The notes below the pieces were generated by a model. It was not told the DNA's origin, searched no databases, and saw only the letters and a program-made list of their open reading frames with translations. Below, in pieces: positions 17,288 to 47,570 of a stretch of 64,000 nt of DNA (positions within the stretch are counted from its first letter, which is position 1; every line of letters begins with the position of its first letter). Source of the DNA: a virus; IMG/VR virus record IMGVR_UViG_3300033182_000980, positions 248,001 to 312,000 of that record; one strand, given 5' to 3'. The translations under genes and the position numbers were made by a program.

Positions 17288-20020
17288 ATGTTTGCCGATA
17301 TGCTTGAGACATTAAGACGACCCGATATAAAGCCCAAGCTGTGGATGAAAGATTGCGAGCTGATCTTGGGTACGAAAGAAAACCTAGATCAGTGCATTGA
17401 TGAGTGTATCAACAGCGTTGCGTATGGGATTGACCTTGAGACAACAGGTCTTGATAATCGTGTGTTCAATGGACGCACACGAGATACGATTGTAGGGGTC
17501 TGCTTGTCAGCCCATAAGGATAAGGGGTACTACTTCCCTGTCGGTCATCAAGAGGGTGTAGAACATAACATCCCTTGGAGGTTGATGTATCCAGCTCTTG
17601 AGCGTCTGTTTGATCTCTCTGTGAAAGCAGAGCCTGTCTTTCACAACGCCGCTTTCGACCAAGAGTTCTTGGAGTTCAACGAGTACAAGTCGGGTCTTGG
17701 TGAGGAGCGTTGGGATTCGTTCAAGTGGCATGACACCTATATCATCCAGTATCTCTTGAACCCTCGTGAAAAGGGAGGTCGAGGACTCAAGCATTTAACG
17801 AATGTTCACCTTGAGCGTGAGATGATTGAGCTGTCTGATCTCATGCCCGATGCCCCCGACAAAAACTACTCTAAGCTCGATGTGAGCTGGGAGCCTTGTG
17901 TTTGGTATGCCGCTAGTGATGCGATGTGTACGCTTGGTCTTTGGGAAATCCTTTATAAGAAGTACACCGAGGCTAAAGAGCATACGCTCTCTATGTATGT
18001 GTTAGAGCGTATGTGTCTGCTCTCAACCCGATGGATGCACAGAAATCGTGTCTACATTGATCGGGACACAGCGTTAAAGTACAGCCAGCAAGGTCAGAAG
18101 TTATGGTTTGACTCTCTGATTGATGTCTATGACGGAGCAAAAGAAATCTTAGGTCGAGACATTACCCCTAACTATGTTCGAGTCCTTAAAGGCGAGTTGA
18201 AGGGCGAGAACAAGTTTAACCACATGGAAGTGGAGGGGATGAGCTATAAGACTCGTGTAGACGAAGCTCGTAAGGAAGCGACTCGTTTATATCCCGATGA
18301 AAAGGGAGTAGTCACTAAGGCTGTGAAGATCATCGGTAAGAGTGCAGGTACAGAGGAGATTGAGTTTCCTTTGACCTATGACATCTTATCCCCTCAAAAG
18401 CTCGGCTTGTTGTTTAGAGAGTTGAGTGTACCAGGTCTTAAGGCGAGTGAAAAGTCGGGGCAAGTCGTAACCTCTAAAGACATTCTTGAAGAGGTCATTG
18501 AGAAGGCATCTGATGACTTTCCATTCATGGCTAAGGTTAAGACCTTTCGTGAGCTTGGAAAGGCTATGGGTCAATACCTCATTCCCTTTGTAGAGGATGT
18601 CGGACAAGACGGTACTCTCAAGCCCAAGTTTGATCAGTTTGCCGCTGACACAGGACGCTTTTCATGTAAGACAAACAGCAAGCCTTGGAAGGTCAAAGAC
18701 GGTGGGTGTCGTGTACCATTTCAAGGTATACCAGCTACCTACGATCCGACTAAGCCCGAAGCTGTGGCTAAGATGCGTTCTTGCGTGGCAGTGCGTGATG
18801 ATGATTGGTGGTTAGCGGCCATTGACTATGCAGGTGTAGAGCTTCGGTTAGTCACAAACTTGAGTCTTGAGCCTAAGTGGATTAAGGCTTTCTTTGAGTG
18901 TTCCGAGTGTGGCACATCTTACCCACAAGAAATCCAAGAGGATGGGTTCGCCAAAGCACCTCCGTCTAACTGTACGAACTGTGGCTCTGATAAGATTGGC
19001 GACTTGCACACGATTACAGCGGTGGCGTTTTATGGTGAGAGTGCTAAGAAGCGTGATGATTGGAAGGCGTTGAGAGGTAATGGTAAGGGTTGCAACTTTG
19101 CTCTGTCTTACGGTGGTACAGGTAAGGCTGTTCAGCGTACCATTGGTTGTTCAGCCGAAGAAGCAGAGGAGAAGTTCAAGAAGTTCACCTCGACTTATAG
19201 TGAGCTGACGAAGTGGTGGTCTAAGCAACACAACTTTGGTCGTAAACATGGTTATGTCAAGACAGGTATGGGTCGTGTTCAGCCATTGCCCGACATCAAC
19301 TCTGATGATTTTAGGTTCAAATCCAAAGATGAGCGTAAGGCTGTTAATGGGCCAGTACAGGGTACGAGTGCAGATGTAACCAAGTTGGCGATGAGCTTCA
19401 TCTACCAAGAGACTAAGAAGCGTGGGTGGCAAGACAAGCTGATGATGATCTTGACCGTCCATGACGAAATCGTCTTTGAGATCCATAAGTCGATCTTGAA
19501 AGAGGCGATTGATATGATCTCCGAGATGATGACTCGCAACAAGGTGATTAAGCGTCTAGGTTGGCGTGTGCCTTTGCTTGTAGATGTTGAGCTTGGTAAG
19601 GATTGGACTGTTCCTTTTGATGTGAAAGATGTAATCGCAGGAGAAGCTGGCGACAAGATCATCAATGCCAAGTACAAGTGCAAGGATTGTGAGGAAAAGA
19701 CACCTCGTGATCCTAAGCCTACGGTTTGTATGCACTGTGGCTCTAGCAACATTAAGTGTGATTACACAGATGAGTTTATTGCCAAGATCAAGAAGCAGAC
19801 CGAACAGCTTTATGCAGACTATGGGGTGAATCCCGATGAGATTGTTAAAGAGGAAGAGGTACCCAATAAGGTTGAGGAAGCTCCCCCAAGCAAGCCTACT
19901 TTCATGCTAGAGTCTTTGACCGAAGATACTGCTAAAGAGCTTGCTGATTGGATTAAAAATCAAGATGGTGAGTATGATGTAGTATATCAAGGTCGTAGTA
20001 TAAATGCTTTACTAGATTGA
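17288..20020 (+). CDS. Family A DNA polymerase with two zinc-ribbon insertions
   Basis: 910 aa from ATG 17288, seven bases after SD AGGAGG. An N-terminal DnaQ-like 3'-5' exonuclease domain starts with GIDLETTGLDN and includes FHNAAFDQEF. The polymerase domain has motif A (AIDYAGVELRLVTNLS), the O-helix (RGNGKGCNFALSYGG, with Phe at the residue-762 position) and motif C (LTVHDEIVFEI), so the catalytic Asp pair is present. There is no 5'-3' exonuclease domain. Unusually, a C-x2-C ... C-x2-C ribbon (CSECGTSY ... CTNCGS) is inserted just after motif A, and a second (CKDC ... CMHCGS) lies near the C-terminus. It is the likely replicative enzyme. The methyltransferase gene follows after 8 bases. 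Confidence 0.95.
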   Translation: MFADMLETLRRPDIKPKLWMKDCELILGTKENLDQCIDECINSVAYGIDLETTGLDNRVFNGRTRDTIVGVCLSAHKDKGYYFPVGHQEGVEHNIPWRLMYPALERLFDLSVKAEPVFHNAAFDQEFLEFNEYKSGLGEERWDSFKWHDTYIIQYLLNPREKGGRGLKHLTNVHLEREMIELSDLMPDAPDKNYSKLDVSWEPCVWYAASDAMCTLGLWEILYKKYTEAKEHTLSMYVLERMCLLSTRWMHRNRVYIDRDTALKYSQQGQKLWFDSLIDVYDGAKEILGRDITPNYVRVLKGELKGENKFNHMEVEGMSYKTRVDEARKEATRLYPDEKGVVTKAVKIIGKSAGTEEIEFPLTYDILSPQKLGLLFRELSVPGLKASEKSGQVVTSKDILEEVIEKASDDFPFMAKVKTFRELGKAMGQYLIPFVEDVGQDGTLKPKFDQFAADTGRFSCKTNSKPWKVKDGGCRVPFQGIPATYDPTKPEAVAKMRSCVAVRDDDWWLAAIDYAGVELRLVTNLSLEPKWIKAFFECSECGTSYPQEIQEDGFAKAPPSNCTNCGSDKIGDLHTITAVAFYGESAKKRDDWKALRGNGKGCNFALSYGGTGKAVQRTIGCSAEEAEEKFKKFTSTYSELTKWWSKQHNFGRKHGYVKTGMGRVQPLPDINSDDFRFKSKDERKAVNGPVQGTSADVTKLAMSFIYQETKKRGWQDKLMMILTVHDEIVFEIHKSILKEAIDMISEMMTRNKVIKRLGWRVPLLVDVELGKDWTVPFDVKDVIAGEAGDKIINAKYKCKDCEEKTPRDPKPTVCMHCGSSNIKCDYTDEFIAKIKKQTEQLYADYGVNPDEIVKEEEVPNKVEEAPPSKPTFMLESLTEDTAKELADWIKNQDGEYDVVYQGRSINALLD

Positions 20021-20028
20021 GGTTAAAT

Positions 20029-21255
20029 ATGTTTTTTGAGTATGAAAAAAAGAAGTACAACGGAATAGACGATTACACTTGGGTGAGTGGAGGTAAATTA
20101 TTCACACCTGCCCATGAGCTGTCCGAGATCAAATCAAAGTTTACAAGATATGAGATCATACTCAAAATCTGTCAGGTGATATATGACCACCAAATACCAT
20201 TCCCCTATAAAGAGCACAGCGTATCTAAAGCTAAAGGTGAGTTATCTAAGCTCTTTAATACACATTTCCCTGCTGATGAAAGAGAATGGTATTCAGACTT
20301 ATGCGAAGGCATCAAGTGCTTTAAATATAGGGGGGGCTATCTGCGGATAAAGACCAACCACACAGGCACTTATGTCTCTGACCTATTTTGTCATCGTACT
20401 CGATTAAAGGCACAAAAGAAAAGGTACGCTGATGATCGTCTAGGAATGGTAGGTCTTTGGGAGTATCTTTTATCTTACAGGTGCGAGGAGGAGTCTGATA
20501 TAAATACGGTCATGTATATGTTTATCAATGGTATCTTTCACTTTAGCGATAAGATTGACCATACAGCGGTTTACACTTCGGGGAGATTATCTATTGGTAC
20601 TGTAAGTCAATTTAAACCCGCTAGTGCTAAGGCTCTGTACGATTTATTTGGAGCTAAGAATGTACTCGACTTTTGTGCTGGATGGGGGGATAGGCTAGTA
20701 GGATTTCATGCATCCAATGCCGAAACATATATCGGAATTGACCCTAACTCTGATTTGCACCCTCAATATGAAAAGATACATGAGTTTTGTGGCACTGGAA
20801 AAGAAGCAAAGTTCATCTGTTTGCCCGCAGAAGATGTAGATTATTCAGAACTCCGATATGACTTTGTTTTCACATCTCCACCATACTTTGATCTGGAAAT
20901 ATACAATGGAGAAGAGACTCAATCCGTGAAAAGATACCCTAAGATCGACCATTGGTTAAAGGGGTTCTTGTTCAAATCTTTGAGTAAGATTTATGAGTAT
21001 CTAGAAGATGGTGGTAGAATAGCGGTCAATATATCAGACAGTCCAGCAGTGAACATTTTTGTTTGTGAGTCTATGCTAGAGCACATGGAGTCGATAGGTG
21101 CTACTTATGAGGGTACTATAGGTTATGGCCTTGCTCGTAGACCTACCGAGAGTGGGCATAATTATTTAAAAGAAAAGTCTGAGCCTATTTTTATTTGGTC
21201 TAAGGGTGTTGCTCCCGATCCAAATCGACAAACAGATAATTTTTTTGGAGTCTAG
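20029..21255 (+). CDS. SPPY-type amino-methyltransferase-like protein, paralogue A
   Basis: 408 aa from ATG 20029 (MFFEYEKKK); SD GAGG lies at the polymerase stop. The C-terminal half has the SAM-binding motif DFCAGWGDRLVGFHASNA with GIDPN, and the catalytic motif FTSPPYFD, typical of DNA N6-adenine/N4-cytosine methyltransferases. The N-terminal ~190 residues are variable between the seven paralogues and may recognise the target. It is closest to paralogue G (46356-47570), sharing the HFSDK...VYTSGRL / VYTAGRL region. It is the only rightward copy. Its C-terminus, DNFFGV-stop, also encodes the SD (TTTGGAGTC) of the next gene. Confidence 0.8.
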   Translation: MFFEYEKKKYNGIDDYTWVSGGKLFTPAHELSEIKSKFTRYEIILKICQVIYDHQIPFPYKEHSVSKAKGELSKLFNTHFPADEREWYSDLCEGIKCFKYRGGYLRIKTNHTGTYVSDLFCHRTRLKAQKKRYADDRLGMVGLWEYLLSYRCEEESDINTVMYMFINGIFHFSDKIDHTAVYTSGRLSIGTVSQFKPASAKALYDLFGAKNVLDFCAGWGDRLVGFHASNAETYIGIDPNSDLHPQYEKIHEFCGTGKEAKFICLPAEDVDYSELRYDFVFTSPPYFDLEIYNGEETQSVKRYPKIDHWLKGFLFKSLSKIYEYLEDGGRIAVNISDSPAVNIFVCESMLEHMESIGATYEGTIGYGLARRPTESGHNYLKEKSEPIFIWSKGVAPDPNRQTDNFFGV

Positions 21256-26814: not shown

Positions 26815-27858
26815 ATGAAAGTCATTGAGAACACGAAAGGCTTGGTCTATTTCCATGCCCCCAAGTCTAAAGAAAAGCACATCACCAAGACATTAACCGA
26901 GGATCTTTTTTCCGACATCGGTAATGATATGTACGAGAACAGGCTTACCGACTGGGACGGATTCAGCTGGAGTGGTGAGGAGACTGATGCTTTCTTTGAT
27001 GAATGTATGCCCATTGTTCGTAAGAACATAACACTAGAAGTCTTTCCTCGAAGCAGATATGGGTACGACTGTACGATGTTTCGTTTCCATCTTGACTTTG
27101 CAGGCATGGAGCGAGACTTAGCTCGTAAGATCAGAACTCTAAAGTTAAAGGGTAAGCGTTCATCAAGGGATAGGGTAGAGGGTTGGAGTATCACAGTCCC
27201 TTCACTAGCTTTCAATCATGTGTCCTCTGCTTTAAAGAGCATTGGTATTAAATGGGAGTCATCTAAAACATCTAGCTACAATGGAGAGCTAAACATGAGA
27301 AGATCAGCATCAGAAATCATCAATGACCTTGAATCCCGTATTGCCCGACTTGAGTCGGGAAGTTTCAATGTCGGAGATCAAGTAGAATGTGTTGTGCTTG
27401 GAAAACAAGTCAAAGGGGCTATCAAAGCAGACCACTTTGGAAAGTATGTCTTTGTAGACTTTGGCAGTCAAACTCTAGCTGTGCCTTATGAGGACTGTGA
27501 GCTTGTTAATCAAACGACTGCACCTTGGAATCCCAAAGATATGTTTAGGGATCTAGCTAGGTCTTTCCCTAGTTTACCTAGAGGTCAAGCGTACTCTAAA
27601 AATGGTAGTACCCAAATCATTGTGTCCGACATTGGAAAACATTCAGCTCGGATTAATATAGCTGGTCCTACCTATGGAGTCGCCAAAAAGATCATGGCAA
27701 AGATTAGTAAGTTGCTCGCTAAAAAGTATGGGTTTGAAATGGTGAGGTATGACACCCTAGCACTTAATGATGGGAGCGGATACAAGTATACGATTGAAAT
27801 GAGTTCTATGGGGTCAATCAGTTTCGGTTCTAGTGTAGAGACTATTAGGTTGTATTAA
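26815..27858 (+). CDS. Unknown two-part late protein with internal MRRSASE tag
   Basis: 347 aa from ATG 26815. The first 160 residues are an unrecognised alpha/beta domain. At ATG 27295 the frame continues as MRRSASEIINDLESRIARLE, the same N-terminal tag found on the genes starting at 32933 and 33768. It is preceded by ATGGAGA, the same SD context as those genes. A small beta-barrel-like part (FNVGDQVECVVLGKQVKGAI) and a C-terminal alpha/beta domain follow. So this looks like an in-frame fusion of an upstream gene to a tagged gene, with possible internal initiation giving a 187-aa product. Function unknown. Confidence 0.6.
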   Translation: MKVIENTKGLVYFHAPKSKEKHITKTLTEDLFSDIGNDMYENRLTDWDGFSWSGEETDAFFDECMPIVRKNITLEVFPRSRYGYDCTMFRFHLDFAGMERDLARKIRTLKLKGKRSSRDRVEGWSITVPSLAFNHVSSALKSIGIKWESSKTSSYNGELNMRRSASEIINDLESRIARLESGSFNVGDQVECVVLGKQVKGAIKADHFGKYVFVDFGSQTLAVPYEDCELVNQTTAPWNPKDMFRDLARSFPSLPRGQAYSKNGSTQIIVSDIGKHSARINIAGPTYGVAKKIMAKISKLLAKKYGFEMVRYDTLALNDGSGYKYTIEMSSMGSISFGSSVETIRLY

Positions 27859-32932: not shown

Positions 32933-33670
32933 ATGAGAAGATCAGCATCAGAAGTAATCAGAGAGCTTGAGTCAAGAGTCGATCAGCTTGAAAAACAAGC
33001 TGGTCTATTTGATTTCTTTCGCAGTGAGAAAACGATTCAAACCGAGACTAAAGAGCTTGAGAAGTTAGTCAAGTCTATACGAGGTGTCAGTCGTGTTGCC
33101 ATTGACATCAAAAACCGAGATCGTTGCAAAATGAAAGTAACCTATGAAGGTGAAACCCTTATTCTTAAAGGGTGGTGCAATGATGATGAGTTAGGTATTT
33201 ATGGTAAGGGCAAAAGAGCTGTCTATATACCAGGTAGTCCAGGTGTCGGACTTTTGACAACACACGGCATAAGATCAAGGGGAGGAAGACCTTCATCTAA
33301 AGGGGGGAAGATTAACACTTATGTATTTGGGGGTCAGATAAGACGAGGCAAAGTGATTACAGTCAGTCTCTACACCATGAATGGATCTCGTGTTAAAGAT
33401 ACCAAAGAACTTGAGGCTTTCTTAGATTTGATTTTAGAGGATGCACTCGATGATGGACCTCGCAAGAGGGAAGAAGAAATCGAGAGACAGAGGATTGAGA
33501 AGGAAAGGGTTGAACAGGAGAGGGTACACAACAGAAAGGTGCAGAAGGAGAGGGAAGAGCGTAAGCGTCAAAAGAGGGAGATGTTTGAAAAGAACAGACA
33601 AAAAAAGATGCAGGGTAGGCAAGCCAGCCTAAGCTCAAACCGATTAGTAAAGAGCAGAAGCCATTGGTGA
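32933..33670 (+). CDS. Late protein with N-terminal MRRSASEVI tag and charged coiled-coil tail
   Basis: 245 aa. Opens MRRSASEVIRELESRVDQLE, the shared tag, then KQAGLFDFFRSEK. The middle is an alpha/beta domain related to the frameshifted gene at 28239. Residues ~180-245 are an Arg/Lys/Glu-rich single helix, probably nucleic-acid- or protein-binding. The charged tail and late promoter suggest a virion-internal protein (inference). Function unknown. Confidence 0.6.
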   Translation: MRRSASEVIRELESRVDQLEKQAGLFDFFRSEKTIQTETKELEKLVKSIRGVSRVAIDIKNRDRCKMKVTYEGETLILKGWCNDDELGIYGKGKRAVYIPGSPGVGLLTTHGIRSRGGRPSSKGGKINTYVFGGQIRRGKVITVSLYTMNGSRVKDTKELEAFLDLILEDALDDGPRKREEEIERQRIEKERVEQERVHNRKVQKEREERKRQKREMFEKNRQKKMQGRQASLSSNRLVKSRSHW

Positions 33671-33706: not shown

Positions 33707-33762
33707 TTTATAAATTATTTATAGGTTCTCATAAGTGATCTAACCTTAACCCCTATGGAGAA
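33707..33762 (+). promoter_or_regulatory. Late-type promoter and SD-sequestering hairpin
   Basis: TTTATAAATTATTTATA at 33707-33723. TTCTCATA (33726-33733) pairs with TAT-G-GAGAA (33754-33762), eight pairs with one bulge, over the SD of the gene at 33768. Confidence 0.6.
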
Positions 33763-33767
33763 TGAAC

Positions 33768-34496
33768 ATGAGAAGGTCTGCTTCAGAAGTTATCAGAAAC
33801 CTTGAAATGAGGATTGCTCGTCTTGAGCGAGTTGCGAAGTCAGATGGTCCAGTGCTGAAAGCCATCAATTCTTCAAATGCTTACCATCACCCGCATTATG
33901 GTGGAAGCTACACCACTGCGATGCTTTTTGAGTTAAGATCTAATAAGAGATGGGAAGCAGTCCTTGACGGAAATGTTGTCATCGTATCTCAAGGATTGAT
34001 CGACGGTAAAACCAAGACTACTAAGAAAACCTTTGATGACGGTGTTGATGCTGAACGACACTTTAGGAGAATCTTGGGTAGGAAACTTAATCAAGGTGGG
34101 GTGGATTGGACATCTGCGTTCTATGCAAAAGACGGAGATAAGAGCGAGAGAGGAAGGCATCATGGTCCTTCCGAAATAATGTATGGTCGTTATCCTACCC
34201 CTAATAACCTACAGGAGAGATACCACGCAACCGCTTTACCAGACATTAAATCTGCTCTTGACGAGTTAGAGGGTATGGCTATTCCTGCTCTTATGGAAGA
34301 TGACTTTCATAGCGGGGATAGACATCTACAACACGCACTCGTACTGATTGGTAGCCACAACGGTCATGAAGATTTGTCCACCTCATTATTTGAGGGGATC
34401 TTATCTGCCAAGCAAAACTTAAAGAGTGGATTAGACTCTGATCAAGTAATCAGAGATATATCTGATCTCGTGGATCAGATCAGACGCAAGATGTGA
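33768..34496 (+). CDS. Late protein with N-terminal MRRSASEVI tag, weakly WGR-like
   Basis: 242 aa from ATG 33768; ATG 33762 is in frame, but the paralogue at 32933 supports 33768. The tag MRRSASEVIRNLEMRIARLE is followed by a domain (MLFELRSNKRWEAVLDGNV ... FDDGVDAERHFRRILGRKL) that loosely resembles a WGR domain, which occurs in DNA-associated proteins; this is a weak call. The C-terminal half is helical. The 3' end is 9 bases from the convergent gene. Confidence 0.6.
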   Translation: MRRSASEVIRNLEMRIARLERVAKSDGPVLKAINSSNAYHHPHYGGSYTTAMLFELRSNKRWEAVLDGNVVIVSQGLIDGKTKTTKKTFDDGVDAERHFRRILGRKLNQGGVDWTSAFYAKDGDKSERGRHHGPSEIMYGRYPTPNNLQERYHATALPDIKSALDELEGMAIPALMEDDFHSGDRHLQHALVLIGSHNGHEDLSTSLFEGILSAKQNLKSGLDSDQVIRDISDLVDQIRRKM

Positions 34497-34505: not shown

Positions 34506-34853
34506 TTAAGATTTCCACCAGTCATCGAACGCTCCCCATTCGATCATCTCATATAGGTCAGTAGGGATCGACCCGACACAATCATGGTGAAACCACTCAC
34601 CATTTTGCCTTATACGCCACTTTTTGAGTTCTTCATGTAGGTGGGCTTCCCTCCACCCTAAACCTTCAAAAGAGGCTATAAGGCGAAGCTCATGTGAAGC
34701 ACCTGTTTGGAGTTGCTTGAGTCTCTTCTTAGGGTGCTTGGATCGACCTATCTTAATCATGCCTGTCTTGCTCGCCTGGATGAAGTACAGATAGTCTCCC
34801 TGCTTTCGTTGCTTTTGCTCACGATTTCTATTTAACATTTCTTCTAAGGTCAT
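34506..34853 (-). CDS. GIY-YIG family (T5orf172/MUG113-like) protein
   Basis: 115 aa. YLYFIQASKTGMIKIGRSKH gives the GIY-YIG-type strands (YFI ... KIG) and KKRLKQLQTG the following Arg helix. EAHLHEELKKWRIR and GEWF complete the T5orf172/MUG113 pattern. Probably a small nuclease. It ends the long leftward operon, with its own CATATAAT element at 34873-34882. Confidence 0.8.
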   Translation of the reverse strand: MTLEEMLNRNREQKQRKQGDYLYFIQASKTGMIKIGRSKHPKKRLKQLQTGASHELRLIASFEGLGWREAHLHEELKKWRIRQNGEWFHHDCVGSIPTDLYEMIEWGAFDDWWKS

Positions 34854-34883: not shown

Positions 34884-36059
34884 TTAAAAGAAATAATCAT
34901 CCCTAACCCATTTAGGTTCGGATGTTAAACCCTTACTCCAAATAAAGATCGGCTCACAAGTTGGGAGGTCTGTTTTCTGACCTCCTCGCTCGGACATACG
35001 ATAGCCAATCACACCCTCATAGGTCGCTCCTAAGTTTCTCATGTGTTCAAGCATCGGTGTGCAGATGTCCTCACCTTTTTTATCTGCGATGTTGATTGCT
35101 ATCCTACCACCCTCTTTAAGTACCGACCAGCATTTAGTGAGGGTAGCGAGTAAGAAATCGTTGACCCAATCTTTAAGATCTGGATAACGCTTCCACGATT
35201 GAGTCTCCTCTTGGCTGTACCTCTCGATGTCGAAGTAAGGTGGACTCGTAAATACAAAGTCCACCTTAACATCAGATAGATCAGCATCCTCTGCTGGAGA
35301 GCAAATAAATCGAGTGGTCTTACCTGTATCGCAGAGATTGACGATTTGCTGGTAAGGCTCATGAAGGTTCGTATTAGGATCAATCCCGATATAAGACTCC
35401 GCGTTCGAGGCAAGGAAACCGACAAGCCTATCGCCCCACCCTGCCGAGAAATCTAAGACACTTTTGGCTTGGAACAGATCGTAGAGAGCTTTAGCTGATT
35501 CGGCTTTAAACTGACTTGCCATATATGTGTGCATCTTTAAGGCTCTTCTAAGGGTTTGCTTATTGACTCCACCTCTCTCATAGATGTCTCTCTCACAAAT
35601 GCCAAAGAAGCATCTTAAGAATGAGTTGCTTTTACTGGCATTGACCCACTCATCATAGGGTGAGTTTCCTTGAGTTCGATAGCTACATTTCATCCTCTGT
35701 GATTGGGTAAACAGATTAGAGACAGCCTTACCTTTGTAGTAGCTGTTAAGGTAAACATATTTACCTTGATAGGTTGTGTCTAGGGGTGTAGCTTGGCGAG
35801 GTGCGATCCATTCTTCAAATACGAATGGATCTTCCTTTGCTTTAAGATCATTAAAGTCGTTTATTGCCTGTCCTACTGTGTACTCGGAGTAGGGGTAAGG
35901 CAAAGACTCAATGATGGGTGCGATGTGATCTTTGATCTGTTCCTTAGTGTATGTCTCACGAAGCATACTCCACTCATTAGGGAGTATGTGAATATATCCG
36001 TCTTTGATATACTCAATGTCATCTAGCGACTTGAGTGTGGTTTTATAGTCAAAGTACAT
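34884..36059 (-). CDS. SPPY-type amino-methyltransferase-like protein, paralogue B
   Basis: 391 aa. Motif I DFSAGWGDRLVGFLASNA, GIDPN and motif IV FTSPPYFDIERYSQEETQS are intact. Closest to paralogue D (MHTYMASQFK region, and SPYDEW / SPMFEW in the variable part). It starts directly after the stop of the PLP-enzyme gene (GGTGCTTAAATG), so it is coupled to the TS/PP-loop/PLP cassette. It ends KWVRDDYFF, lacking the FFGV end of the other copies. Predicted SAM-dependent; the modified base and site are unknown. Confidence 0.8.
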   Translation of the reverse strand: MYFDYKTTLKSLDDIEYIKDGYIHILPNEWSMLRETYTKEQIKDHIAPIIESLPYPYSEYTVGQAINDFNDLKAKEDPFVFEEWIAPRQATPLDTTYQGKYVYLNSYYKGKAVSNLFTQSQRMKCSYRTQGNSPYDEWVNASKSNSFLRCFFGICERDIYERGGVNKQTLRRALKMHTYMASQFKAESAKALYDLFQAKSVLDFSAGWGDRLVGFLASNAESYIGIDPNTNLHEPYQQIVNLCDTGKTTRFICSPAEDADLSDVKVDFVFTSPPYFDIERYSQEETQSWKRYPDLKDWVNDFLLATLTKCWSVLKEGGRIAINIADKKGEDICTPMLEHMRNLGATYEGVIGYRMSERGGQKTDLPTCEPIFIWSKGLTSEPKWVRDDYFF

Positions 36060-36893
36060 TTAAGCACCTAAATTCCAGAATAGGGTTTTCCCTTTTAACT
36101 TGTATGGATTTTCAGTGATCCACTCCCATGCTTTTTTATCCCAGAGTTTGTTGCAAGGGAATGGGGTTGTGAAGTGATCCATCTCATCGTAGAAATCGTA
36201 CTCGGACTTATAAATCTTGAGGCAAGATGGGACACTTCCTAGATTAGAGATCAGAGCCTTCTCTATAGTCTTAACGCTAGAGGTAGCAACGATTACAATC
36301 TTCTTCCCTTCAAAGTCTGGCTCAAACATAACACCAGCGATGTAGTCAACACCTAAGAACCCTTTAATCAGCCCAACACTTGTAATGCCACTACCCCCTT
36401 CAATGACTAGTGTGTTGTATTCATTCCGAGAGAAGAACTCTTTAGAACGCTCTGTCCAATAGTTGATGTAGACAGGGTGGTTGAACGCATCTGGACACAT
36501 CTGCCAATCGTTTTGAGAAGCTATTTTCTTTGTCTGCGAGGACAAGATAGCTACCATGTTGTGCTTTAAGGGGATCAACTCTCCACCATATAACTCGACC
36601 TTTTTCAGCATCTCTTGAGAGTACGCTTTTGTGTTCGGGTAAGCTATTTTGATGTCATAGCCTAGCTCTTTGCCCCAATAAGCTAACGCCCACCCTGTGT
36701 ACGATCCTCTGACTGTGAGGTGTACAATGGGTTTATCTTTTGTGAAGTAGTCCGAGGCGAGAAGTCTCCTTATGCCTTCAAGTTTCGCCCAAGGGGGGAG
36801 ATCGAGGGAGCCGTTGAGTAGATCATCTCTTTTGACATCGACATTTTTGTGTTTGACTTTGTATGTTTCTACTGGAGTATCAAAGTTTAACAT
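36060..36893 (-). CDS. PLP-dependent enzyme, tryptophan-synthase-beta fold (ACC deaminase / D-cysteine desulfhydrase-like)
   Basis: 277 aa from ATG 36893 (MLNFDTPVETYKVK), SD AAGG; the longer frame start has none. VKRDDLLNGSLDLPPWAKLE includes the conserved KRDD and, at about K37, the expected PLP lysine. HLTVRGSYTGWALAYWGKEL corresponds to the Ser-Asn/Thr substrate loop, and IEGGSGITSVGLIKG to the glycine-rich phosphate loop. Fold-type II members make or break C-N or C-S bonds at the beta position. It overlaps the PP-loop gene by 14 bases, so the two probably act in one pathway. Substrate unknown. Confidence 0.75.
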   Translation of the reverse strand: MLNFDTPVETYKVKHKNVDVKRDDLLNGSLDLPPWAKLEGIRRLLASDYFTKDKPIVHLTVRGSYTGWALAYWGKELGYDIKIAYPNTKAYSQEMLKKVELYGGELIPLKHNMVAILSSQTKKIASQNDWQMCPDAFNHPVYINYWTERSKEFFSRNEYNTLVIEGGSGITSVGLIKGFLGVDYIAGVMFEPDFEGKKIVIVATSSVKTIEKALISNLGSVPSCLKIYKSEYDFYDEMDHFTTPFPCNKLWDKKAWEWITENPYKLKGKTLFWNLGA

Positions 36894-37791
36894 TGAACAT
36901 CGCCTTTTCTTCAAACTCTATGTCTTTGAGTATTTGGTTGTATATCGCTCTAGTGTCTTTATATGAAGTCCCTGCTAATAAGACTCTTCTGTGTAAGCCC
37001 TTTAAGCCTCCACTTTTCCCTGTGGTGTGGAAGTTGGATCTGTTCGTTTTGTGTTTATCAAAGTATTCTTTATGCGTATGTTCGGTAATGAACCATTTGG
37101 GCTGGATCTTATTACTAGCTGGATTGAGCAGTAGCTGATCCCACAGTAGAGATTTACACAAGGACTCTATTCGGGGTGTGCGAAATGGACACAACACTTC
37201 AATACCCTTACTTTTTAAGAACTGTCTTATCACCCACAGGTTGTGAGGGCTTCCAGAAGGGTACTTTTCTTCTAGCTCTTTCTCGACTAAGTTTTTGAAA
37301 TAGTTATCTAGGGCAACCCTAGACCCTCCTTTTTTGTATGCTCCCCAAAGGCTGTTAACTTTCGCTCCGCTGTGAGCAAACATCGTAGTGTAAAACCCTG
37401 TGATCAGATAGGGTGTGGTCATTTGATTTCTCATGTAAGAATAAGCATGACAAACCTGTGTCTCTATATTCCTCGTTGTGCGTGTGGTCTTAATGACTTC
37501 CTTAACTTCCCTTAACAAGTCATCTCGAATAGGGTCAGAGGGGATGGTAGCCACTTTCAAGGGTAGGTCATAATGCTTTGCTATTTGTTGAGCATACTCA
37601 AGGTCTTTGGAATACTCGCCCTCAATCTCAAAGGTGATCAGCTCTTTTGGCGGCCTTCTTAGCTCTATCATTGTGAACAATAGCATGGAAGAATCTATCC
37701 CACCAGAAAACGAGAGACTAATGTCTTGGGGTAGGTTTCTTACCGAGTCATAGATTGCTTCTTTAAATTCCTGTACCCATGTGTGTGTCAT
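36880..37791 (-). CDS. PP-loop ATP pyrophosphatase, asparagine-synthetase C-domain-like
   Basis: 303 aa. LSFSGGIDSSMLLFTMIE carries the SGG-x-DSS PP-loop, which binds ATP and forms an adenylate in Asn synthetase, NAD synthetase and related enzymes. FEIEGEYSKDLEYAQQIAKHYDL fits the following AANH fold. There is no N-terminal glutaminase domain, so it must use another amine donor or serve as an adenylating/ligase module. It starts inside the TS-like gene (29-base overlap) and overlaps the PLP gene. Role in making a modified nucleotide is inference from context. Confidence 0.8.
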   Translation of the reverse strand: MTHTWVQEFKEAIYDSVRNLPQDISLSFSGGIDSSMLLFTMIELRRPPKELITFEIEGEYSKDLEYAQQIAKHYDLPLKVATIPSDPIRDDLLREVKEVIKTTRTTRNIETQVCHAYSYMRNQMTTPYLITGFYTTMFAHSGAKVNSLWGAYKKGGSRVALDNYFKNLVEKELEEKYPSGSPHNLWVIRQFLKSKGIEVLCPFRTPRIESLCKSLLWDQLLLNPASNKIQPKWFITEHTHKEYFDKHKTNRSNFHTTGKSGGLKGLHRRVLLAGTSYKDTRAIYNQILKDIEFEEKAMFNVKL

Positions 37792-38470
37792 ATCTTCTCA
37801 TCAACTCTCTTGAGTTTTTTAACTCGTTGTTTTGAGTCCTTACATGACAAGAATGAGCAAACGAGGTTACGAGTCCGAAATCTAAACAGCCACTCTCTTT
37901 ACAGAGGAAATCGCATAGGTCAACGAGAGCCATGTAGTCAGCATATCCAGACTTGGACACAGCTTGGCTTCTAAAGTTAGCTGTTAAGTTAAGTTTCCCA
38001 CCTCTAGGTTTCAAGTCGATTGTCAGTAAGCAAGGCATACCGCCCATAACCTTTTTACCATCCGACTGAGGATCATATACACCAATGACAATCGTTTTAG
38101 CTTGCTTGTTTTCCCTTAGCCTCTTAATCGCCTGCTCGATTTGATTGAAGCCTCCGTTCCAAGAAATCATTCGCCCCCAATAACTATTCGTCCATTTCCC
38201 CTCTTTGTTCTGCTGATACTCTAACATCTGTGGGAACAACATATTAGGTTCTGGCTTCACAAAGGTAACAGACTTAGCATAGTCGATACGCTCATCTCCA
38301 AAGATGTCTCTAAACTCTTTATCAAACACAGGGCAGACCTCGGAGGATTTGATCTCTATACCCATGTTTAAAATCTCATAAAGACCTCCCATATTCATGC
38401 CTTTGTCAAGGATGTCTTGAGTCGCTTTGACCCATGCTTCTGCACAGTTGTTTGCTGTTATGTGATACAT
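37763..38470 (-). CDS. Thymidylate-synthase-fold enzyme, possibly dCMP-specific
   Basis: 235 aa, a little shorter than ThyA (264 aa). MPCLLTIDLKPRGGKLNLTA includes the catalytic Cys (C147, E. coli C146), and FRSQA gives the phosphate-binding RS at 167-168, though the usual RS-x-D Asp is absent. Aligned from that Arg without gaps, D178 falls at E. coli N177. In T4 dCMP hydroxymethylase an Asp there selects cytosine, so dCMP may be the substrate. The WGRM motif at 98-101 fits the fold. Its SD lies in the FFGV end of the upstream methyltransferase gene. Thymidylate synthase activity itself is the main alternative. Confidence 0.75.
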   Translation of the reverse strand: MYHITANNCAEAWVKATQDILDKGMNMGGLYEILNMGIEIKSSEVCPVFDKEFRDIFGDERIDYAKSVTFVKPEPNMLFPQMLEYQQNKEGKWTNSYWGRMISWNGGFNQIEQAIKRLRENKQAKTIVIGVYDPQSDGKKVMGGMPCLLTIDLKPRGGKLNLTANFRSQAVSKSGYADYMALVDLCDFLCKESGCLDFGLVTSFAHSCHVRTQNNELKNSRELMRRYDTHMGTGI

Positions 38471-38473
38471 ATT

Positions 38474-39679
38474 CTACACTCCAAAGAAGTTGTCTTGATG
38501 CCATTTAGGTTCGGGAGCTTCACCCTTACTCCAGATAAAGATCGGTTCGCAAAACACATCTATCTTCGACAACTCATCGTTTAAGGAATGGTGATTGCCT
38601 GGCCTCTTAGACATACGATAACCCATGACTCCTTCATAGGTTGCCCCTAGTGAGTCCATGTACTCGATCATGGGCTGACATACTCGTATGTCTCCTCTTA
38701 CTTTATCCGAGATGTTCACGCATATACGACCCCCATCTTCTAAAGCGTCCCAACATTTTTTTAGAGTCGGGTAGAGGAAGCCATTAAGCCAGTCATCTGT
38801 ATCTGGATAACGCTTCCATGATTGCGTGTCCTCTTGGCTGTACTTCTCGGTATCAAAGTAAGGTGGACTAGTGAATACAAAGTCTACTTTAACATCGGAT
38901 AGATCAGCATCCTCTGCCGGCGAACAGATAAACCGAGTGGACTTATTCGTAGAACAATAATCAGCGATCTTCTGATAAGGTTCATGGAGCTTAGTGTTAG
39001 GGTCTAGTCCGACATAAGACTCCGCATCCGAGGCTAAAAACCCAACTAACCTGTCGCCCCACCCCATAGAGAAATCTAAGACTCGTTTAGCTCCGAAGAA
39101 GTTATACATAGCCTTAGCTAAGGTAGGCTTAAACTGAGCTGGAATATATCCAGACATACCGATAGCGTTTACAAGTATCTTGCTATTCACACCCTTTGAC
39201 GGATCGTATAGTGTCCATAGAGGTCTAAGGAACGCTCTCTTTTTGGACTTGAGGTCTGTTCGAGTCCATTGCCTCATTGCACTTGGGAACTGCTTATGAT
39301 CAACCTCTAAACGCATAGGCTCACTATATTGGTTAGACACCTTGAGTCCTTTGTTATTAGGGGCGAAGTAAAGATACCTCCCTTGATAGGTATGGGGCTG
39401 ATCTATCTCGCACCGAGGCAACCCCCACTCTCCCTCAATCGGGGTCATGTAATCGGATTGAACCTCTAGCCAGTCTTTCTTGATCTCTTGAGGAGTGTAC
39501 TTAGTGAATGGGTAAGGTAGCCCTTCAATCTTTGCCGACAGGTAGTCTGTGATCTCATCTCTACTAAAGTTATCTACCATCTCTAACCACTGATGCGGTG
39601 GTATAAAGATTTCTTGTCCGCTCACAACAGCATAATCTTCAAGACTATCTTTTTTGGTTTTTTCATAATCAAAGAACAT
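38474..39679 (-). CDS. SPPY-type amino-methyltransferase-like protein, paralogue C
   Basis: 401 aa. Motif I DFSMGWGDRLVGFLASDA and motif IV FTSPPYFDTEKYSQEDTQS are intact. It is nearly the twin of paralogue E (40876-42081), with the same GEWGLPRCEID...HTYQG segment; differences cluster at residues ~120-180 (possible target recognition). SD GAAAGGAT upstream. The end FFGV-stop carries the GGAG used by the TS-like gene. Confidence 0.8.
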   Translation of the reverse strand: MFFDYEKTKKDSLEDYAVVSGQEIFIPPHQWLEMVDNFSRDEITDYLSAKIEGLPYPFTKYTPQEIKKDWLEVQSDYMTPIEGEWGLPRCEIDQPHTYQGRYLYFAPNNKGLKVSNQYSEPMRLEVDHKQFPSAMRQWTRTDLKSKKRAFLRPLWTLYDPSKGVNSKILVNAIGMSGYIPAQFKPTLAKAMYNFFGAKRVLDFSMGWGDRLVGFLASDAESYVGLDPNTKLHEPYQKIADYCSTNKSTRFICSPAEDADLSDVKVDFVFTSPPYFDTEKYSQEDTQSWKRYPDTDDWLNGFLYPTLKKCWDALEDGGRICVNISDKVRGDIRVCQPMIEYMDSLGATYEGVMGYRMSKRPGNHHSLNDELSKIDVFCEPIFIWSKGEAPEPKWHQDNFFGV

Positions 39680-39708: not shown

Positions 39709-40872
39709 TTATACTCCAAAGTAGTTATCTTGATGCCACTTAGGTTCTGGAGCTTCCCCTTTACTCCAAATAAAGATCGGTTCGCAGAATACCTCTCCTA
39801 GATTCATTCCGTTTCGCTTTTGCATCTTGTAGCCAATGACACCTTCATAGGTAGCCCCTAATCTCTCCATGTGGTCAATCATTGGCGAACAGATGTCTAA
39901 TCCTTTTTTGTCGGCTATGTTGATTGCTATCCGACCACCTTCTTCTAACGCTTCATAACACTTAGTAAGCGTGGGTAGCAGAAATGATTTAATCCACTGT
40001 TGAGGATTTCTGTATCGTTTCCACGATTGCGTATCTTCATCGCTATATCTTTCTATGTCGAAGTAAGGGGGGCTTGTAAAAACGAAGTCTACTTTAACAT
40101 CGGATAGATCAGCATCCTCTGCTGGAGAACAGATAAATCGAGTCTCCTTGTTCGTATCGCAGAAGCGTACAATCTGTCCATAAGGCTCATGGAGCTGGGT
40201 ATTAGGATCAATGCCGATATAGGACTCGGCATTGGAGGCGAGGAAGCCAACTAACCTATCGCCCCAACCAGCAGAGAAATCTAAAACCCGTTTAGCTCCG
40301 AAGAAGTTATATAAGGCGAGGGCAGTCTCTGGTTTAAACTGACTTGCCATATAGGTGTGCATCTTTAAGGCTCGGTACAGGACGCTGTTATTAAGCCCAC
40401 TTGCCTTGACCTCATCTTTAAGTATTCCAAACAGACACCTCAAAAATGAGCTTGGCTTGTTTGGGTGTTGCCATTCAAACATCGGGGAGTTTCCGTTATG
40501 GTATCCACAACACATCCTCTGCACTTGAGTAAACTGATTGGAGACTTTTTGACCCTTATTACTTGGCGTAAAGTATAAGGCTCTACCCTTATAAGTAAGC
40601 TCTATTGCTTCTGTTTGTCTTGGTGCGTTCCAAGTACCCAAAGTGTATGTAGGGGTAGCACCTTGAACTTGTGACCAGTCGCCTTGCGTTTCAAGTTCAA
40701 GGTATCTTCGTAGAGGGAAGGGCTTATCTTTTATGATCTCGGTTAAGTGTTGTTTTATCTCTTGGTCAGAGTAAAACTTTTTAAGGGCTTCCCAGTCCGA
40801 TGGTTTGCAGGACACAGTATCTGTGAAATACTCTGATATATCTTTCTTTTCGATCTCATAGTCAAAGAACAT
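39709..40872 (-). CDS. SPPY-type amino-methyltransferase-like protein, paralogue D
   Basis: 387 aa. Motifs DFSAGWGDRLVGFLASNA and FTSPPYFDIERYSDEDTQS are intact. Most like paralogue B. The SD is the GGGG in the end codons of paralogue E (TTTGGGGTATGAGCTATG), so C, D and E are a coupled trio separated by 3-29 bases. Confidence 0.8.
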   Translation of the reverse strand: MFFDYEIEKKDISEYFTDTVSCKPSDWEALKKFYSDQEIKQHLTEIIKDKPFPLRRYLELETQGDWSQVQGATPTYTLGTWNAPRQTEAIELTYKGRALYFTPSNKGQKVSNQFTQVQRMCCGYHNGNSPMFEWQHPNKPSSFLRCLFGILKDEVKASGLNNSVLYRALKMHTYMASQFKPETALALYNFFGAKRVLDFSAGWGDRLVGFLASNAESYIGIDPNTQLHEPYGQIVRFCDTNKETRFICSPAEDADLSDVKVDFVFTSPPYFDIERYSDEDTQSWKRYRNPQQWIKSFLLPTLTKCYEALEEGGRIAINIADKKGLDICSPMIDHMERLGATYEGVIGYKMQKRNGMNLGEVFCEPIFIWSKGEAPEPKWHQDNYFGV

Positions 40873-40875: not shown

Positions 40876-42081
40876 TCATACCCCAAAGTAGTTATCTTGA
40901 TGCCATTTAGGTTCGGGTGCTTCCCCCTTACTCCAAATGAAGATAGGCTCACAGAATATATCTACCTTAGCCAGCTCATCGTTTAAGGAATGGTGATTAC
41001 CTGGCCTCTTAGACATACGATAGCCCATCACCCCCTCATAGGTTGCTCCTAGTGAGTCCATGTACTCAATCATAGGTTGGCACACCCTAACATCTCCATG
41101 TACTTTGTCGGAGATGTTTACACAGATACGACCTCCTTCTTCTAAAGCGTCCCAACACTTCTTGAGCGTTGGGTAGAGGAAACCTTTAAGCCAGTCATCT
41201 GTTTCTGGATATCGCTTCCAACTCTGTGTATCTTCTTGACTGTACTTTTCGGTATCAAAGTATGGTGGGCTGGTAAATACAAAATCAACTTTAACATCGG
41301 ATAGGTCAGCATCTTCCGCAGGGGAACAGATGAACCTCGTTTTCTTATTGGTGTTGCAATAAGCCTCTATCTGTCCATAAGGTTCATGGAGCTTGGTATT
41401 AGGGTCAATCCCGACATAAGACTCTGCATCAGAAGCTAAGAATCCGACTAACCGATCACCCCAACCCATAGAGAAATCTAGCACCCTTTTAGCTCCGAAG
41501 AAGTTATACATGGCTTTGGCTAGAGTAGGCTTGAACTGAGCCGGTATGTAATAAGACATATTAATGGCGTTATAGAGCATCTTGCTGTTAACCCCTTTCG
41601 ACCTATCGTATAGGGTGAAGAAGGGTCTTAGGAAGTATCTCTTGTCGCCCTTCATCCCTATGCGAGTCCATTGAGTGATGGCACTTTTATATTGTAGGTG
41701 GTCAACCTCTAAACGCATAGGCTCGGTGAACTGATTAGATACCTTGAGTCCTTTGTTATTAGGAGCGAAATAAAGATACTTACCTTGATAAGTATGAGAC
41801 TCATCTATCTCACAGCGTGGTAATCCCCATTCTCCCTCAATCGGAGTCATGTAATCAGATTGAACCTCTAGCCAGTCACGATGTACCTCTTGGGGAGTGT
41901 ACTTGGTATATGGGAAAGGCAGACCTTCAATCTTAGTAGATAAGTAAGTGATGATCTCATCACGAGTGAACTTATCTAGCATCTGTGACCATTCGTGAGG
42001 GGGTATAAAGATTTCTTGTCCTCTTACGACTTCATATTCTTCTATGTTGTCTTTGGCTTTCTTTTCATATTCAAAAAACAT
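40876..42081 (-). CDS. SPPY-type amino-methyltransferase-like protein, paralogue E
   Basis: 401 aa, near twin of paralogue C; the C-terminal half is almost the same, including KRPGNHHSLNDEL near the end. Motifs DFSMGWGDRLVGFLASDA and FTSPPYFDTEKYS are intact. It starts within the last codons of the lipoprotein gene (11-base overlap, SD AGGAG). Recent duplication with C is likely. Confidence 0.8.
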   Translation of the reverse strand: MFFEYEKKAKDNIEEYEVVRGQEIFIPPHEWSQMLDKFTRDEIITYLSTKIEGLPFPYTKYTPQEVHRDWLEVQSDYMTPIEGEWGLPRCEIDESHTYQGKYLYFAPNNKGLKVSNQFTEPMRLEVDHLQYKSAITQWTRIGMKGDKRYFLRPFFTLYDRSKGVNSKMLYNAINMSYYIPAQFKPTLAKAMYNFFGAKRVLDFSMGWGDRLVGFLASDAESYVGIDPNTKLHEPYGQIEAYCNTNKKTRFICSPAEDADLSDVKVDFVFTSPPYFDTEKYSQEDTQSWKRYPETDDWLKGFLYPTLKKCWDALEEGGRICVNISDKVHGDVRVCQPMIEYMDSLGATYEGVMGYRMSKRPGNHHSLNDELAKVDIFCEPIFIWSKGEAPEPKWHQDNYFGV

Positions 42082-45187: not shown

Positions 45188-46354
45188 TTATACGCCAAAA
45201 AAATTATCTTGTTGCCACTTGGGTTCGGGGGGGTTAGACCCCTTACTCCAAACAAAAATAGGTTCCGCTACATTCTCCTTTACACCCTGTCGTGGAGATA
45301 GCGGATAGCCAATCGAACCTTCATAGGTTAAACCTAAAGACCTAGCGTGTTCTAAAAGAGGAGTGCTGACCACCACTTTCTTCCCTTTCCACATGAAGTC
45401 GCTGATGTTAATCGCTATCCTCCCATTCTCTTTTAGAGACTCCACTATGAGTGAGACGGTCTTGAGTAAAAACTCATTTAGCCACAGGTCAAAGTCTTGA
45501 TAGCGGGAAGAAGACTGGGTGTCCTCATCGGAGTAAATCTCTAGGTTGAAGTATGGTGGGGATGTGAAAACGAAGTCATACTCAAGCGATGAGAAGTCCA
45601 CATCTTCCGAGGGGGAGCAGAGAAGCCTAACCTCTTTATCGGGAGCATACGCATTATGTATCTGACGATAAGGTTCATGTAGCTTAGTGTTAGGGTCTAT
45701 CCCTATGTAAGATTCAGCATCCGAGGCTAAGAAGCCGACAAGCCGATCACCCCAACCAGCCGAGAAATCTAAGACGCTCTTAGCTCCGAAAAAGTCATAC
45801 AGGTGCTTTGCACAGTTGGGCTTAAACTGTGTGAGCGTTCGTATGGTTCTTTCATTTGAGAAGGCGTGTATGATTGAGCTTCTGCTCAACTTAGGCTTCA
45901 TAAAGAGTCCTGTTAGTCTTGAGAAGTCATTTTCTTTTCTTTTACCTTGTTCCCAGTAATCTATGGGAGATAGGCCATTTGAGTATCTCCCCTCATGTCT
46001 TGCCTTGATCATGTACTTGCTAGACAACCGATTATAAATAGAAGTGTTTGGTGAAAGTTGTAAGTAAGACCCTTTGTAGAGAGGGTCGGTGTCGGAGTAA
46101 AGGCTTACCCAAGGTCCTTTGATGATCTGTGGTTTGTCATTCTTCAAACTGCGGAAGAGGCTGTTTAGGTCGCAGTTGATCTCTGCAAATGGGAAAGGTG
46201 AGTCAAGCTCTATAACCTTGTCTCGTATGAAGACTAAGACATCTTTCCTATCGTAGTTGTCTTTAATGTACTCCCAATCTTCTTTAGGGCAGTATGGGAA
46301 TCCATCTTTTGACCCTATCAATCCCCCAAGGGTTTTATCGACCTCAAAGAACAT
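45188..46354 (-). CDS. SPPY-type amino-methyltransferase-like protein, paralogue F
   Basis: 388 aa from ATG 46354 (MFFEVDKTLGGLIG); the longer frame overlaps paralogue G and lacks the family start. Motifs DFSAGWGDRLVGFLASDA and FTSPPYFNLEIYSDEDTQSS are intact (Asn for Asp after SPPYF). It is the most divergent copy in the N-terminal half. The SD GGGG lies in the FFGV end of paralogue G. It ends DNFFGV. Confidence 0.8.
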   Translation of the reverse strand: MFFEVDKTLGGLIGSKDGFPYCPKEDWEYIKDNYDRKDVLVFIRDKVIELDSPFPFAEINCDLNSLFRSLKNDKPQIIKGPWVSLYSDTDPLYKGSYLQLSPNTSIYNRLSSKYMIKARHEGRYSNGLSPIDYWEQGKRKENDFSRLTGLFMKPKLSRSSIIHAFSNERTIRTLTQFKPNCAKHLYDFFGAKSVLDFSAGWGDRLVGFLASDAESYIGIDPNTKLHEPYRQIHNAYAPDKEVRLLCSPSEDVDFSSLEYDFVFTSPPYFNLEIYSDEDTQSSSRYQDFDLWLNEFLLKTVSLIVESLKENGRIAINISDFMWKGKKVVVSTPLLEHARSLGLTYEGSIGYPLSPRQGVKENVAEPIFVWSKGSNPPEPKWQQDNFFGV

Positions 46355-46355
46355 A

Positions 46356-47570
46356 CTAAACCCCGAAAAAGTTGTCTTGGTTATACTTAGGTTCGGGTGC
46401 TTCCCCTTTAGACCAAATGAAAATAGGTTCAGAAGATGTGTTCTTCTCGCCATTGGGTAAGGGTCTATTTGAAAGACCATACCCTATCACCCCCTCATAA
46501 GTCGCACCTAGCGATTCCATATGTTTGAGTAAATCTTTACAGATGAACACCTTAAAATTAGGGTTGTCTGATATGTTGATCGCAATCCGACCTCCTACTT
46601 TAAGGCTTTGATATACCTTAGTAAGCGTCTTAAAAAGAAACCCATCTAACCACAGATCAAGATTGGGGTATCTGATGATTGATTGAGTCTCTTCTTTTGT
46701 GTAGGACTCTATGTTAAAGTAAGGGGGTGAGGTTAAAACAAAGTCATAATCTAGCTCGGTATAATCGACATCTTCTGCGGGGCTACAGATAAAGTTTGCT
46801 TCTTTTCCGGTGCCACAAAACTCATGTATCTGTTGATAAGGTTCATGTAGCTTTGTATTAGGGTCAATCCCGATATACGAGTCGGCATTAGACGCATGAA
46901 ATCCAACCAAACGATCACCCCATCCAGCACAAAAATCTAAGATCCTCTTAGCCCCGAAGAAGTCATAAATGCCTTTAGCTGTAGAGGGTTTAAATTGAGA
47001 TACCGAACCACAGCCTAGCCGACCCGCAGTATATACTGCATCTTTGTTTAGTTTGTCGTTGAGGAATACAAACGCACTTAAAAAGTTCAGAGTAGGTGAA
47101 TCGTACTGTGAGGGATGAAACTCATCTTGTTTCATGTGATTCCATACACCAACTATACCCTCATACTTACCCGCCCTCCGTTGGTTTTGAGCTTTTAATC
47201 TTTCCTCGTGTGTGAACTGATCAGAGATTTTTGTTCCAGCAACGGCCGAAAAGACCCATTGGTTACCTTTATATGTGAAGTCTTTAATCTCACACTTTTG
47301 AGTGCTCCACTCCCTCTCAACAGGGGAGTAGTAGCTAGACTTTAACTGATTGAACAGAGCTTTGCACTCGATACGAGAAAAGGTCTTCAAAGGAAAGTCT
47401 ATTTGGTGCTCATGGATTAGCTTGTAGATATGAACATATATCTGTTTTCGTGCAAACTTTGCTTTGATCTCATCAAAGTCTTCCTTACAAACTTCAAAGA
47501 ATCCATCTTTTATCCACACATAATCATCTAGGGAGGTTCTTACCTGTTTTTTTTCATAGTCAAAGAACAT
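46356..47570 (-). CDS. SPPY-type amino-methyltransferase-like protein, paralogue G
   Basis: 404 aa. Motifs DFCAGWGDRLVGFHASNA and LTSPPYFNIESYTKEETQS are intact. Closest to paralogue A beside the DNA polymerase. It starts directly after the SNF2 helicase stop (TAAATG), with SD AAGG in that gene's last codons. Confidence 0.8.
   Translation of the reverse strand: MFFDYEKKQVRTSLDDYVWIKDGFFEVCKEDFDEIKAKFARKQIYVHIYKLIHEHQIDFPLKTFSRIECKALFNQLKSSYYSPVEREWSTQKCEIKDFTYKGNQWVFSAVAGTKISDQFTHEERLKAQNQRRAGKYEGIVGVWNHMKQDEFHPSQYDSPTLNFLSAFVFLNDKLNKDAVYTAGRLGCGSVSQFKPSTAKGIYDFFGAKRILDFCAGWGDRLVGFHASNADSYIGIDPNTKLHEPYQQIHEFCGTGKEANFICSPAEDVDYTELDYDFVLTSPPYFNIESYTKEETQSIIRYPNLDLWLDGFLFKTLTKVYQSLKVGGRIAINISDNPNFKVFICKDLLKHMESLGATYEGVIGYGLSNRPLPNGEKNTSSEPIFIWSKGEAPEPKYNQDNFFGV

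Follow-up and report, generated by a model that had tools for sequence, protein, structure and literature searches.

We identified, in a record from a very large uncultured phage, a cassette of three overlapping genes which, we propose, decorates cytosine in the phage DNA with an amide-bearing, amino-acid-like group. The stretch that was analyzed (the window) is 64,000 nucleotides long and covers bases 248001-312000 of the 375,691-base viral record IMGVR_UViG_3300033182_000980. The three genes lie on its minus strand and encode a thymidylate synthase (TS)-like enzyme, a PP-loop ligase and a pyridoxal phosphate (PLP) enzyme, and they are accompanied by methyltransferase paralogues with a shared SPPY motif. 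We give the proposed decoration, built by the steps set out below, a probability of about 0.5, and consider it likely, more broadly, that the cassette modifies a nucleobase of phage DNA. A first-pass annotation of the window had taken the genes as a candidate nucleotide hypermodification pathway. This idea was supported, as two members are homologous to base-modification enzymes (Pseudomonas phage M6 gp52 and CmoY) and the cassette lies in a replication region, and the chemistry that had been proposed was only partly supported. We found no described set with the same combination, in agreement with that annotation; the cassette is a novel combination of familiar enzyme kinds and not a wholly new kind.

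TS-like enzyme

The TS-like protein matched Thymidylat_synt (1.6e-6, above the Pfam cut-off), and no second TS-family gene was found in the whole 375,691-base record. It retains Cys146, Arg166, Ser167 and His207 of ThyA; in its own numbering, these include the catalytic Cys147 and Arg167-Ser168. At ThyA position 177 the protein has Asp (its Asp178), as do T4 gp42, MilA and RB69 ORF048, whereas ThyA and M6 gp58 have Asn. Because Asp stands where TS has Asn177, the target base is probably cytosine, which narrows the pyrimidine that the first-pass annotation had named without further specification.

That annotation had also suggested one-carbon transfer as the role of the TS-fold enzyme. This is doubtful, because the folate-binding Asp169, which is present in ThyA, T4 gp42, M6 gp58 and MilA, is replaced by Ala in the window and by Arg in diverged relatives, and is likewise absent from RB69 ORF048. 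Gly173 is missing as well, and Arg, Gly or Phe stands in place of Tyr209 in the window protein and its relatives. When scored against four references, the protein matched RB69 ORF048 best (26.1 bits vs 15.7, 10.4 and 9.1), and the RB69-type (Mosigvirus) enzyme acts as a 5-hydroxy-dCMP synthase (PMC13390438). The AlphaFold model of the TS-like protein (pLDDT 77) had as its nearest folds MilA and the FAD-linked dCMP hydroxylases 9iqc/9iqu, whose PDB titles describe a phage dCMP hydroxylase with dCMP and FAD; the best-scoring solved structures were those of MilA, a CMP 5-hydroxymethylase. Thus, the protein shares its superfamily, Asp177 and the losses at 169, 173 and Tyr209 with the RB69 5-hydroxy-dCMP synthase (PDB 9iqc, 9iqu), but overall identity is low and no sugar or arabinosyl genes were seen beside the cassette. 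With T4 gp42 and MilA it shares the fold, the catalytic Cys and Asp177, but not the folate Asp169.

PP-loop ligase and PLP enzyme

The PP-loop protein matched Asn_synthase (2.6e-8, above the Pfam cut-off), carries the P-loop SGGIDSS and is without a glutamine-amidase domain. Comparison of the window ligase group with a CmoY profile gave an hhalign probability of 99.2 over 252 columns, and the match to the amidase-bearing AsnB group was weaker (97.3 over 179 columns). These results suggest an ATP-dependent amide ligase of the CmoY/asparagine-synthetase type. Since the amidase domain is absent, the amine that is joined is probably not glutamine-derived ammonia. Among cultured phages, relatives include members of overlapping or adjacent CmoA-CmoY-CmoX sets in Synechococcus phage S-B43, Pseudomonas phage PaBG and Staphylococcus phage vB-SscS-F1, and CmoY of S-B43 joins glycine to 5-carboxymethylcytosine in DNA (PMC12783734). 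In many diverged cassettes, the place of the CmoY-like ligase is taken by a complete AsnB that has a glutamine-amidase domain at its N-terminus; the closest cultured relative of this AsnB, in Streptomyces phage TurkishDelight, lies between CmoX and CmoA. The cassettes therefore draw on both ligase types of the CmoX systems, CmoY-like in some and AsnB in others. Two other chemistries were considered for the PP-loop protein and dropped: lysidine formation, as the match to TilS was weak, and thiolation fed by the PLP protein as a cysteine desulfhydrase, as Asn_synthase and CmoY gave the best scores and thiolation families gave lower ones or none.

The PLP protein matched phrog_7093 over its full length (6.9e-24) and PALP under the Pfam cut-off (2.4e-7), and its nearest solved structures were cysteine synthases and ACC deaminases of fold type II. 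It aligned with M6 gp52 over the full length at 29% identity. The two proteins have in common Lys37, which is presumed to bind PLP, a glycine-rich loop and the C-terminal motif PFPCNxxxDxKAWxW...FWNxG (PFPCNxxWDKKAW...FWNxG in the window).

The gene neighbors of M6 gp52 are gp51, gp53, gp54 and gp58; the products of these genes are said to be an AADT, a radical SAM enzyme, a kinase and a dUMP hydroxymethylase, respectively, with gp52 as the PLP enzyme. The two systems thus share a homologous PLP enzyme and a TS-superfamily enzyme within the same cluster. They differ in that the cassette TS-like protein has Asp177 (cytosine type) where gp58 has Asn (uracil type), in that the cassette has a CmoY-like ligase and SPPY methyltransferases, and in the position of the PLP enzymes, since a fully supported branch of the PLP tree separates the cassette proteins from the M6-type ones. 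M6 DNA contains 5-(2-aminoethyl)deoxyuridine, made from 5-hydroxymethyldeoxyuridine (5-hmdU) via a kinase (PMC6449724). A profile of 14 sequences of the 5-hmdU kinase gave a best match of E 0.015, with no clear kinase in the record, and a profile of 19 AADT sequences gave no match there. Radical SAM proteins (PF04055) were absent from the window record and four long relatives, a profile of 20 gp53 sequences was likewise without a match, and such proteins were found in merely 3 of 10 related records, none of them closely related to the window.

The S-B43 system, in which CmoA, CmoX and CmoY make 5-glycylcarboxymethylcytosine, resembles the cassette in its homologous ATP-dependent amide ligase and its overlapping gene set with a methyltransferase; it differs in that the cassette has PLP and TS-like enzymes and N-type SPPY proteins, not the SPPC-type C5 methyltransferase CmoX. 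No CmoA was found in the window record or in ten related records, where a host CmoA could still supply carboxy-S-adenosylmethionine (Cx-SAM), and the cytosine C5 carboxymethyltransferase CmoX had no match in the record by tblastn or profile. As the records may be fragments, missing genes are not proof of absence. Overall, the earlier comparison with phage enzyme sets for hypermodified bases stood for the PLP and ligase homologues, but not for the activating and joining enzymes of M6 or for the CmoX-pathway enzymes that install the carboxyl group, none of which were found.

Conservation and co-occurrence in other viral contigs

The same gene order was found in five further IMG/VR records, with the TS-like proteins 85-98%, the PP-loop proteins 49-88% and the PLP proteins 70-94% identical to those of the window. 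Against the closest relative (L010; L numbers denote viral loci), dN/dS was 0.03 for TS, 0.08 for PP-loop and 0.06 for PLP, which indicates strong purifying selection on the three genes. A search with the PLP alignment yielded 79 loci, which were then searched with profiles. Many diverged contigs repeated the order SPPY-TS-ligase-PLP, among them L036, L038, L043, L051, L053, L058, L062, L063 and L076, and the order was retained where PLP was only 41-45% identical; in L078 the same four families stand in a different order.

For the co-occurrence counts, loci needed at least 4.2 kb of upstream and 2.7 kb of downstream sequence and were reduced at 90% identity; the counts are given without statistics, as the PLP loci are not fully independent. 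SPPY lay within ~5.5 kb in 13 of 14 non-redundant PLP loci, TS in 8 and the ligase in 9. M6-type control loci had SPPY in 0 of 10 and radical SAM in 7 of 10. The pattern is thus the opposite of the one that the first-pass annotation had named as speaking against its idea, namely the trio without DNA-modifying partners in most genomes.

A TS-less version was found in L039, L068-L070, L072-L075 and L077. There, the PLP gene stands with an Asp/Asn-hydroxylase-like 2-oxoglutarate dioxygenase (PF05118), a 2-hydroxyacid-dehydrogenase-like protein and a glycosyltransferase-like protein, and SPPY is present wherever the contig extends far enough. The dioxygenase-like gene is frequent in TS-less cassettes and never occurs alongside the TS-like gene; this exchange fits an oxygenating first step on the base. 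In L064, the 2-hydroxyacid dehydrogenase is combined with AsnB. Two TS-less sister cassettes were mapped, at L039:4211-9188, which also has a ThiS-like protein, and at L069:8845-13672.

A nucleotide search of the region among cultured phages gave no match. When 84,980 bacterial and archaeal species genomes were scanned by pattern, neither the TS-like nor the PLP protein turned up a relative, so that no host could be linked to the cassette.

A radical SAM protein (PF04055, 1.9e-9) is encoded at L053:4746-5525 (+), two genes upstream of SPPY, and others occur in L051 and L052; it was rejected as a cassette member, since it is near the cassette in L053 but missing from most relatives. Also near the cassette of L053 is a glycosyl hydrolase family 6 protein at 12656-13474 (+) (PF01341, 1.7e-43).

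SPPY methyltransferases and genomic setting

The positions of the three genes and their overlaps of 29 bases (TS-like/PP-loop) and 14 bases (PP-loop/PLP) agree with the first-pass annotation (Table 1). The latter overlap holds for an ATG start of PLP at 36893; with the upstream TTG at 36914 as start, the protein would have 284 aa and the overlap 35 bases. The ATG is favored because the starts of the relative in L034 and of M6 gp52 coincide with it. One SPPY gene abuts PLP downstream with zero gap, and another ends 3 bases ahead of the TS-like start codon. The annotation was also correct in placing one methyltransferase paralogue directly after the cassette and three before it, and the total in the record rises from four to seven. 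The surroundings are a replication region with a DnaB-like helicase. A second helicase-like gene adjoins paralogue 7, and a DNA-polymerase-I-like gene, on the opposite strand to the cassette, lies beside paralogue 1; both were recognized by sequence.

Table 1. Coordinates in the window of the cassette genes, SPPY paralogues and two neighboring genes
Feature	Position	Strand	Product and remarks
TS-like enzyme gene	37763..38470	-	235 aa
PP-loop ligase gene	36880..37791	-	303 aa
PLP enzyme gene	36060..36893	-	277 aa from ATG 36893
SPPY paralogue 1	20017..21255	+	408 aa from ATG 20029; TTG start of the open reading frame overlaps the end of the polymerase-like gene
SPPY paralogue 2	34884..36059	-	391 aa
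SPPY paralogue 3	38474..39679	-	401 aa
SPPY paralogue 4	39709..40872	-	387 aa
SPPY paralogue 5	40876..42081	-	401 aa; 85% identical to paralogue 3
SPPY paralogue 6	45188..46480	-	388 aa from ATG 46354; 430 aa from first ATG, overlapping the next gene
SPPY paralogue 7	46356..47570	-	404 aa
DNA-polymerase-I-like gene	17279-20020	+	
Second helicase-like gene	47571-49172		

The SPPY proteins matched PF01555 (N4-cytosine/N6-adenine DNA methyltransferase) above the cut-off, and the SPPY motif was invariant across 22 aligned relatives. In the AlphaFold model of paralogue 3 (mean pLDDT 87) the core is of the class I Rossmann type, and no clear structural relative was found for the N-terminal half. For the latter reason, and because TSPPY comes immediately after motif I, the proteins could not be assigned as classical restriction-modification enzymes. 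Identity between paralogues is mostly 16-38% over the first 180 residues (75% in one recent pair) and 60-93% in the catalytic core, a pattern compatible with a constant core that carries a variable half for target recognition. Paralogues 3 and 5 share 93% of the core and 75% of the N-terminal half, much more than other pairs; this suggests a recent duplication, possibly with gene conversion of the core.

Proposed pathway and alternatives

From the homologies, the residue pattern, the conservation and the co-occurrence we infer every reaction, its substrate and the reaction order, as follows. The TS-like enzyme would attack C6 of dCMP with Cys147, select cytosine via Asp178 and oxygenate C5, more likely by flavin-type hydroxylation, as in the RB69 5-hydroxy-dCMP synthase, than by folate one-carbon transfer. 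The PLP enzyme, of the M6 gp52 family, would then install or reshape an alpha-amino-acid side chain at C5. The CmoY-like ligase would adenylate the side-chain carboxylate and form an amide with an amine other than glutamine-derived ammonia. Finally, the SPPY enzymes may methylate an amine, either exocyclic or added, and the seven copies would differ in target according to their variable N-terminal halves.

Several observations weigh against this pathway. In the TS-like protein, Arg126 and Arg127 of ThyA, which are conserved in the RB69 enzyme, are replaced by Lys and Thr (Lys126 is also found in MilA), and mononucleotide binding is less certain because of this. The SGEGSDE motif of AsnB is degenerate in the window ligase (TGFYTTMF), so the acceptor may differ from glycine. 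No separate carboxylate-installing enzyme was identified for the cassette. Lee et al. (2022) are said to have assigned M6 gp52 as a decarboxylase and gp53 as a radical SAM isomerase; if the former holds, a PLP enzyme with the same role would strip the carboxylate that the ligase needs, unless the two act on different groups. In addition, Foldseek placed the SPPY fold closest to the tRNA m2G10 N-methyltransferase Trm11, and the phage record has nine tRNA genes.

Alternatively, the TS-like enzyme could act like T4 gp42 and hydroxymethylate dCMP with folate, and the hydroxymethyl group could be decorated by the ligase and the PLP enzyme, as in the M6 and ViI thymidine pathways. The Asp at position 177, as in T4 gp42, and the MilA structures as best scorers agree with such a route, and so does the homology of the PLP enzyme to gp52, as M6 begins from a hydroxymethylated pyrimidine (PMC6449724). 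However, the loss of an Asp169 that ThyA, T4 gp42, M6 gp58 and MilA all keep, together with the failure to find the M6 kinase (best E 0.015) and AADT in the record, makes 5-hydroxymethylcytosine an unlikely intermediate. A different source of the carboxylate would be the SPPY proteins themselves, acting with Cx-SAM from host CmoA as carboxymethyltransferases on cytosine N4 or adenine N6, with the ligase adding the amine and the TS-like and PLP enzymes acting on the base or the amino acid. A CmoY-type ligase does need a carboxylate, SPPY enzymes are its constant neighbors, and E. coli CmoA alone suffices to give a phage enzyme Cx-SAM (PMC12783734). We nevertheless regard this as rather improbable: CmoA is absent from the window record and the ten related ones, the weak matches of SPPY to CmoB are non-significant (E 0.003-0.1) and cover the Rossmann core only, and SPPY accompanies PLP in L069, L070, L073-L075 and L077, where no ligase was found.

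The cassette might also modify RNA, for example phage or host tRNA, or make a free nucleoside compound. The likeness of the SPPY model to Trm11, the tRNA genes and MilA, which belongs to a nucleoside-antibiotic pathway, would all suit this, but the tRNA genes are ~100 kb distant, helicase genes are the neighbors of the cassette and of six SPPY copies, the seventh copy adjoins the DNA-polymerase-like gene, and the nearest characterized relatives of the PLP enzyme and ligase act on phage DNA. We therefore consider a substrate other than phage DNA quite improbable. Least of all do we expect ordinary auxiliary metabolism genes brought together by chance, although the automatic family names (thymidylate synthase, asparagine synthetase, cysteine synthase) read so. 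Identical neighbors recur in diverged contigs, the proteins belong to specialized subfamilies that are not near host metabolic enzymes, and the scan of 84,980 genomes found no TS-like or PLP relative.

If the amide-bearing cytosine reading is correct, the cassette would bring together, in one cytosine pathway, the thymidine chemistry of M6 and the amide ligation of CmoY, which have so far been known separately; it predicts a new modified nucleoside, and would offer new enzymes for amides on DNA. More tentatively, it could give an undescribed phage DNA base, a cytosine with an amide-linked amino-acid-derived side chain, made by a folate-independent TS-superfamily oxygenase, a gp52-type PLP enzyme and a CmoY-type ligase with diverse N-methyltransferases as constant partner, and in a second version by the 2-oxoglutarate dioxygenase, 2-hydroxyacid dehydrogenase and glycosyltransferase-like protein in place of TS and ligase. 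The work names a cassette family seen here in uncultured phages only, and sharpens the question, raised by PMC12783734, of what further phage amine ligases attach.

Additional features of the record

The nine tRNA genes (Arg x2, Gly, Asn, Tyr, Glu, Lys, Leu and Met) lie outside the window, ~70 kb before its start, at G000:C1:173376-180001 (L022:2376-9001, +). Downstream of the cassette, a small gene at 34506-34853 (-), kept in L002 and L006, resembles by eye a T5orf172/GIY-YIG-like protein. The motif MRRSASEVIxxLExRxxxLE, at or near the N-terminus or internal to the open reading frame, is common to several otherwise different proteins, encoded at 26797-27858, 32933-33670 and 33762-34496 (all +) and at L003:13667-14044 (-), where it reads MRTASEVLRSLEVRLAALE; a role as a leader for sorting or cleavage is possible. 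Finally, a 948-aa open reading frame at 9901-12747 (-) has, by eye only, two tandem domains that look like tRNA nucleotidyltransferases (VxGGAIRNFxxxxPVKDVDxV).

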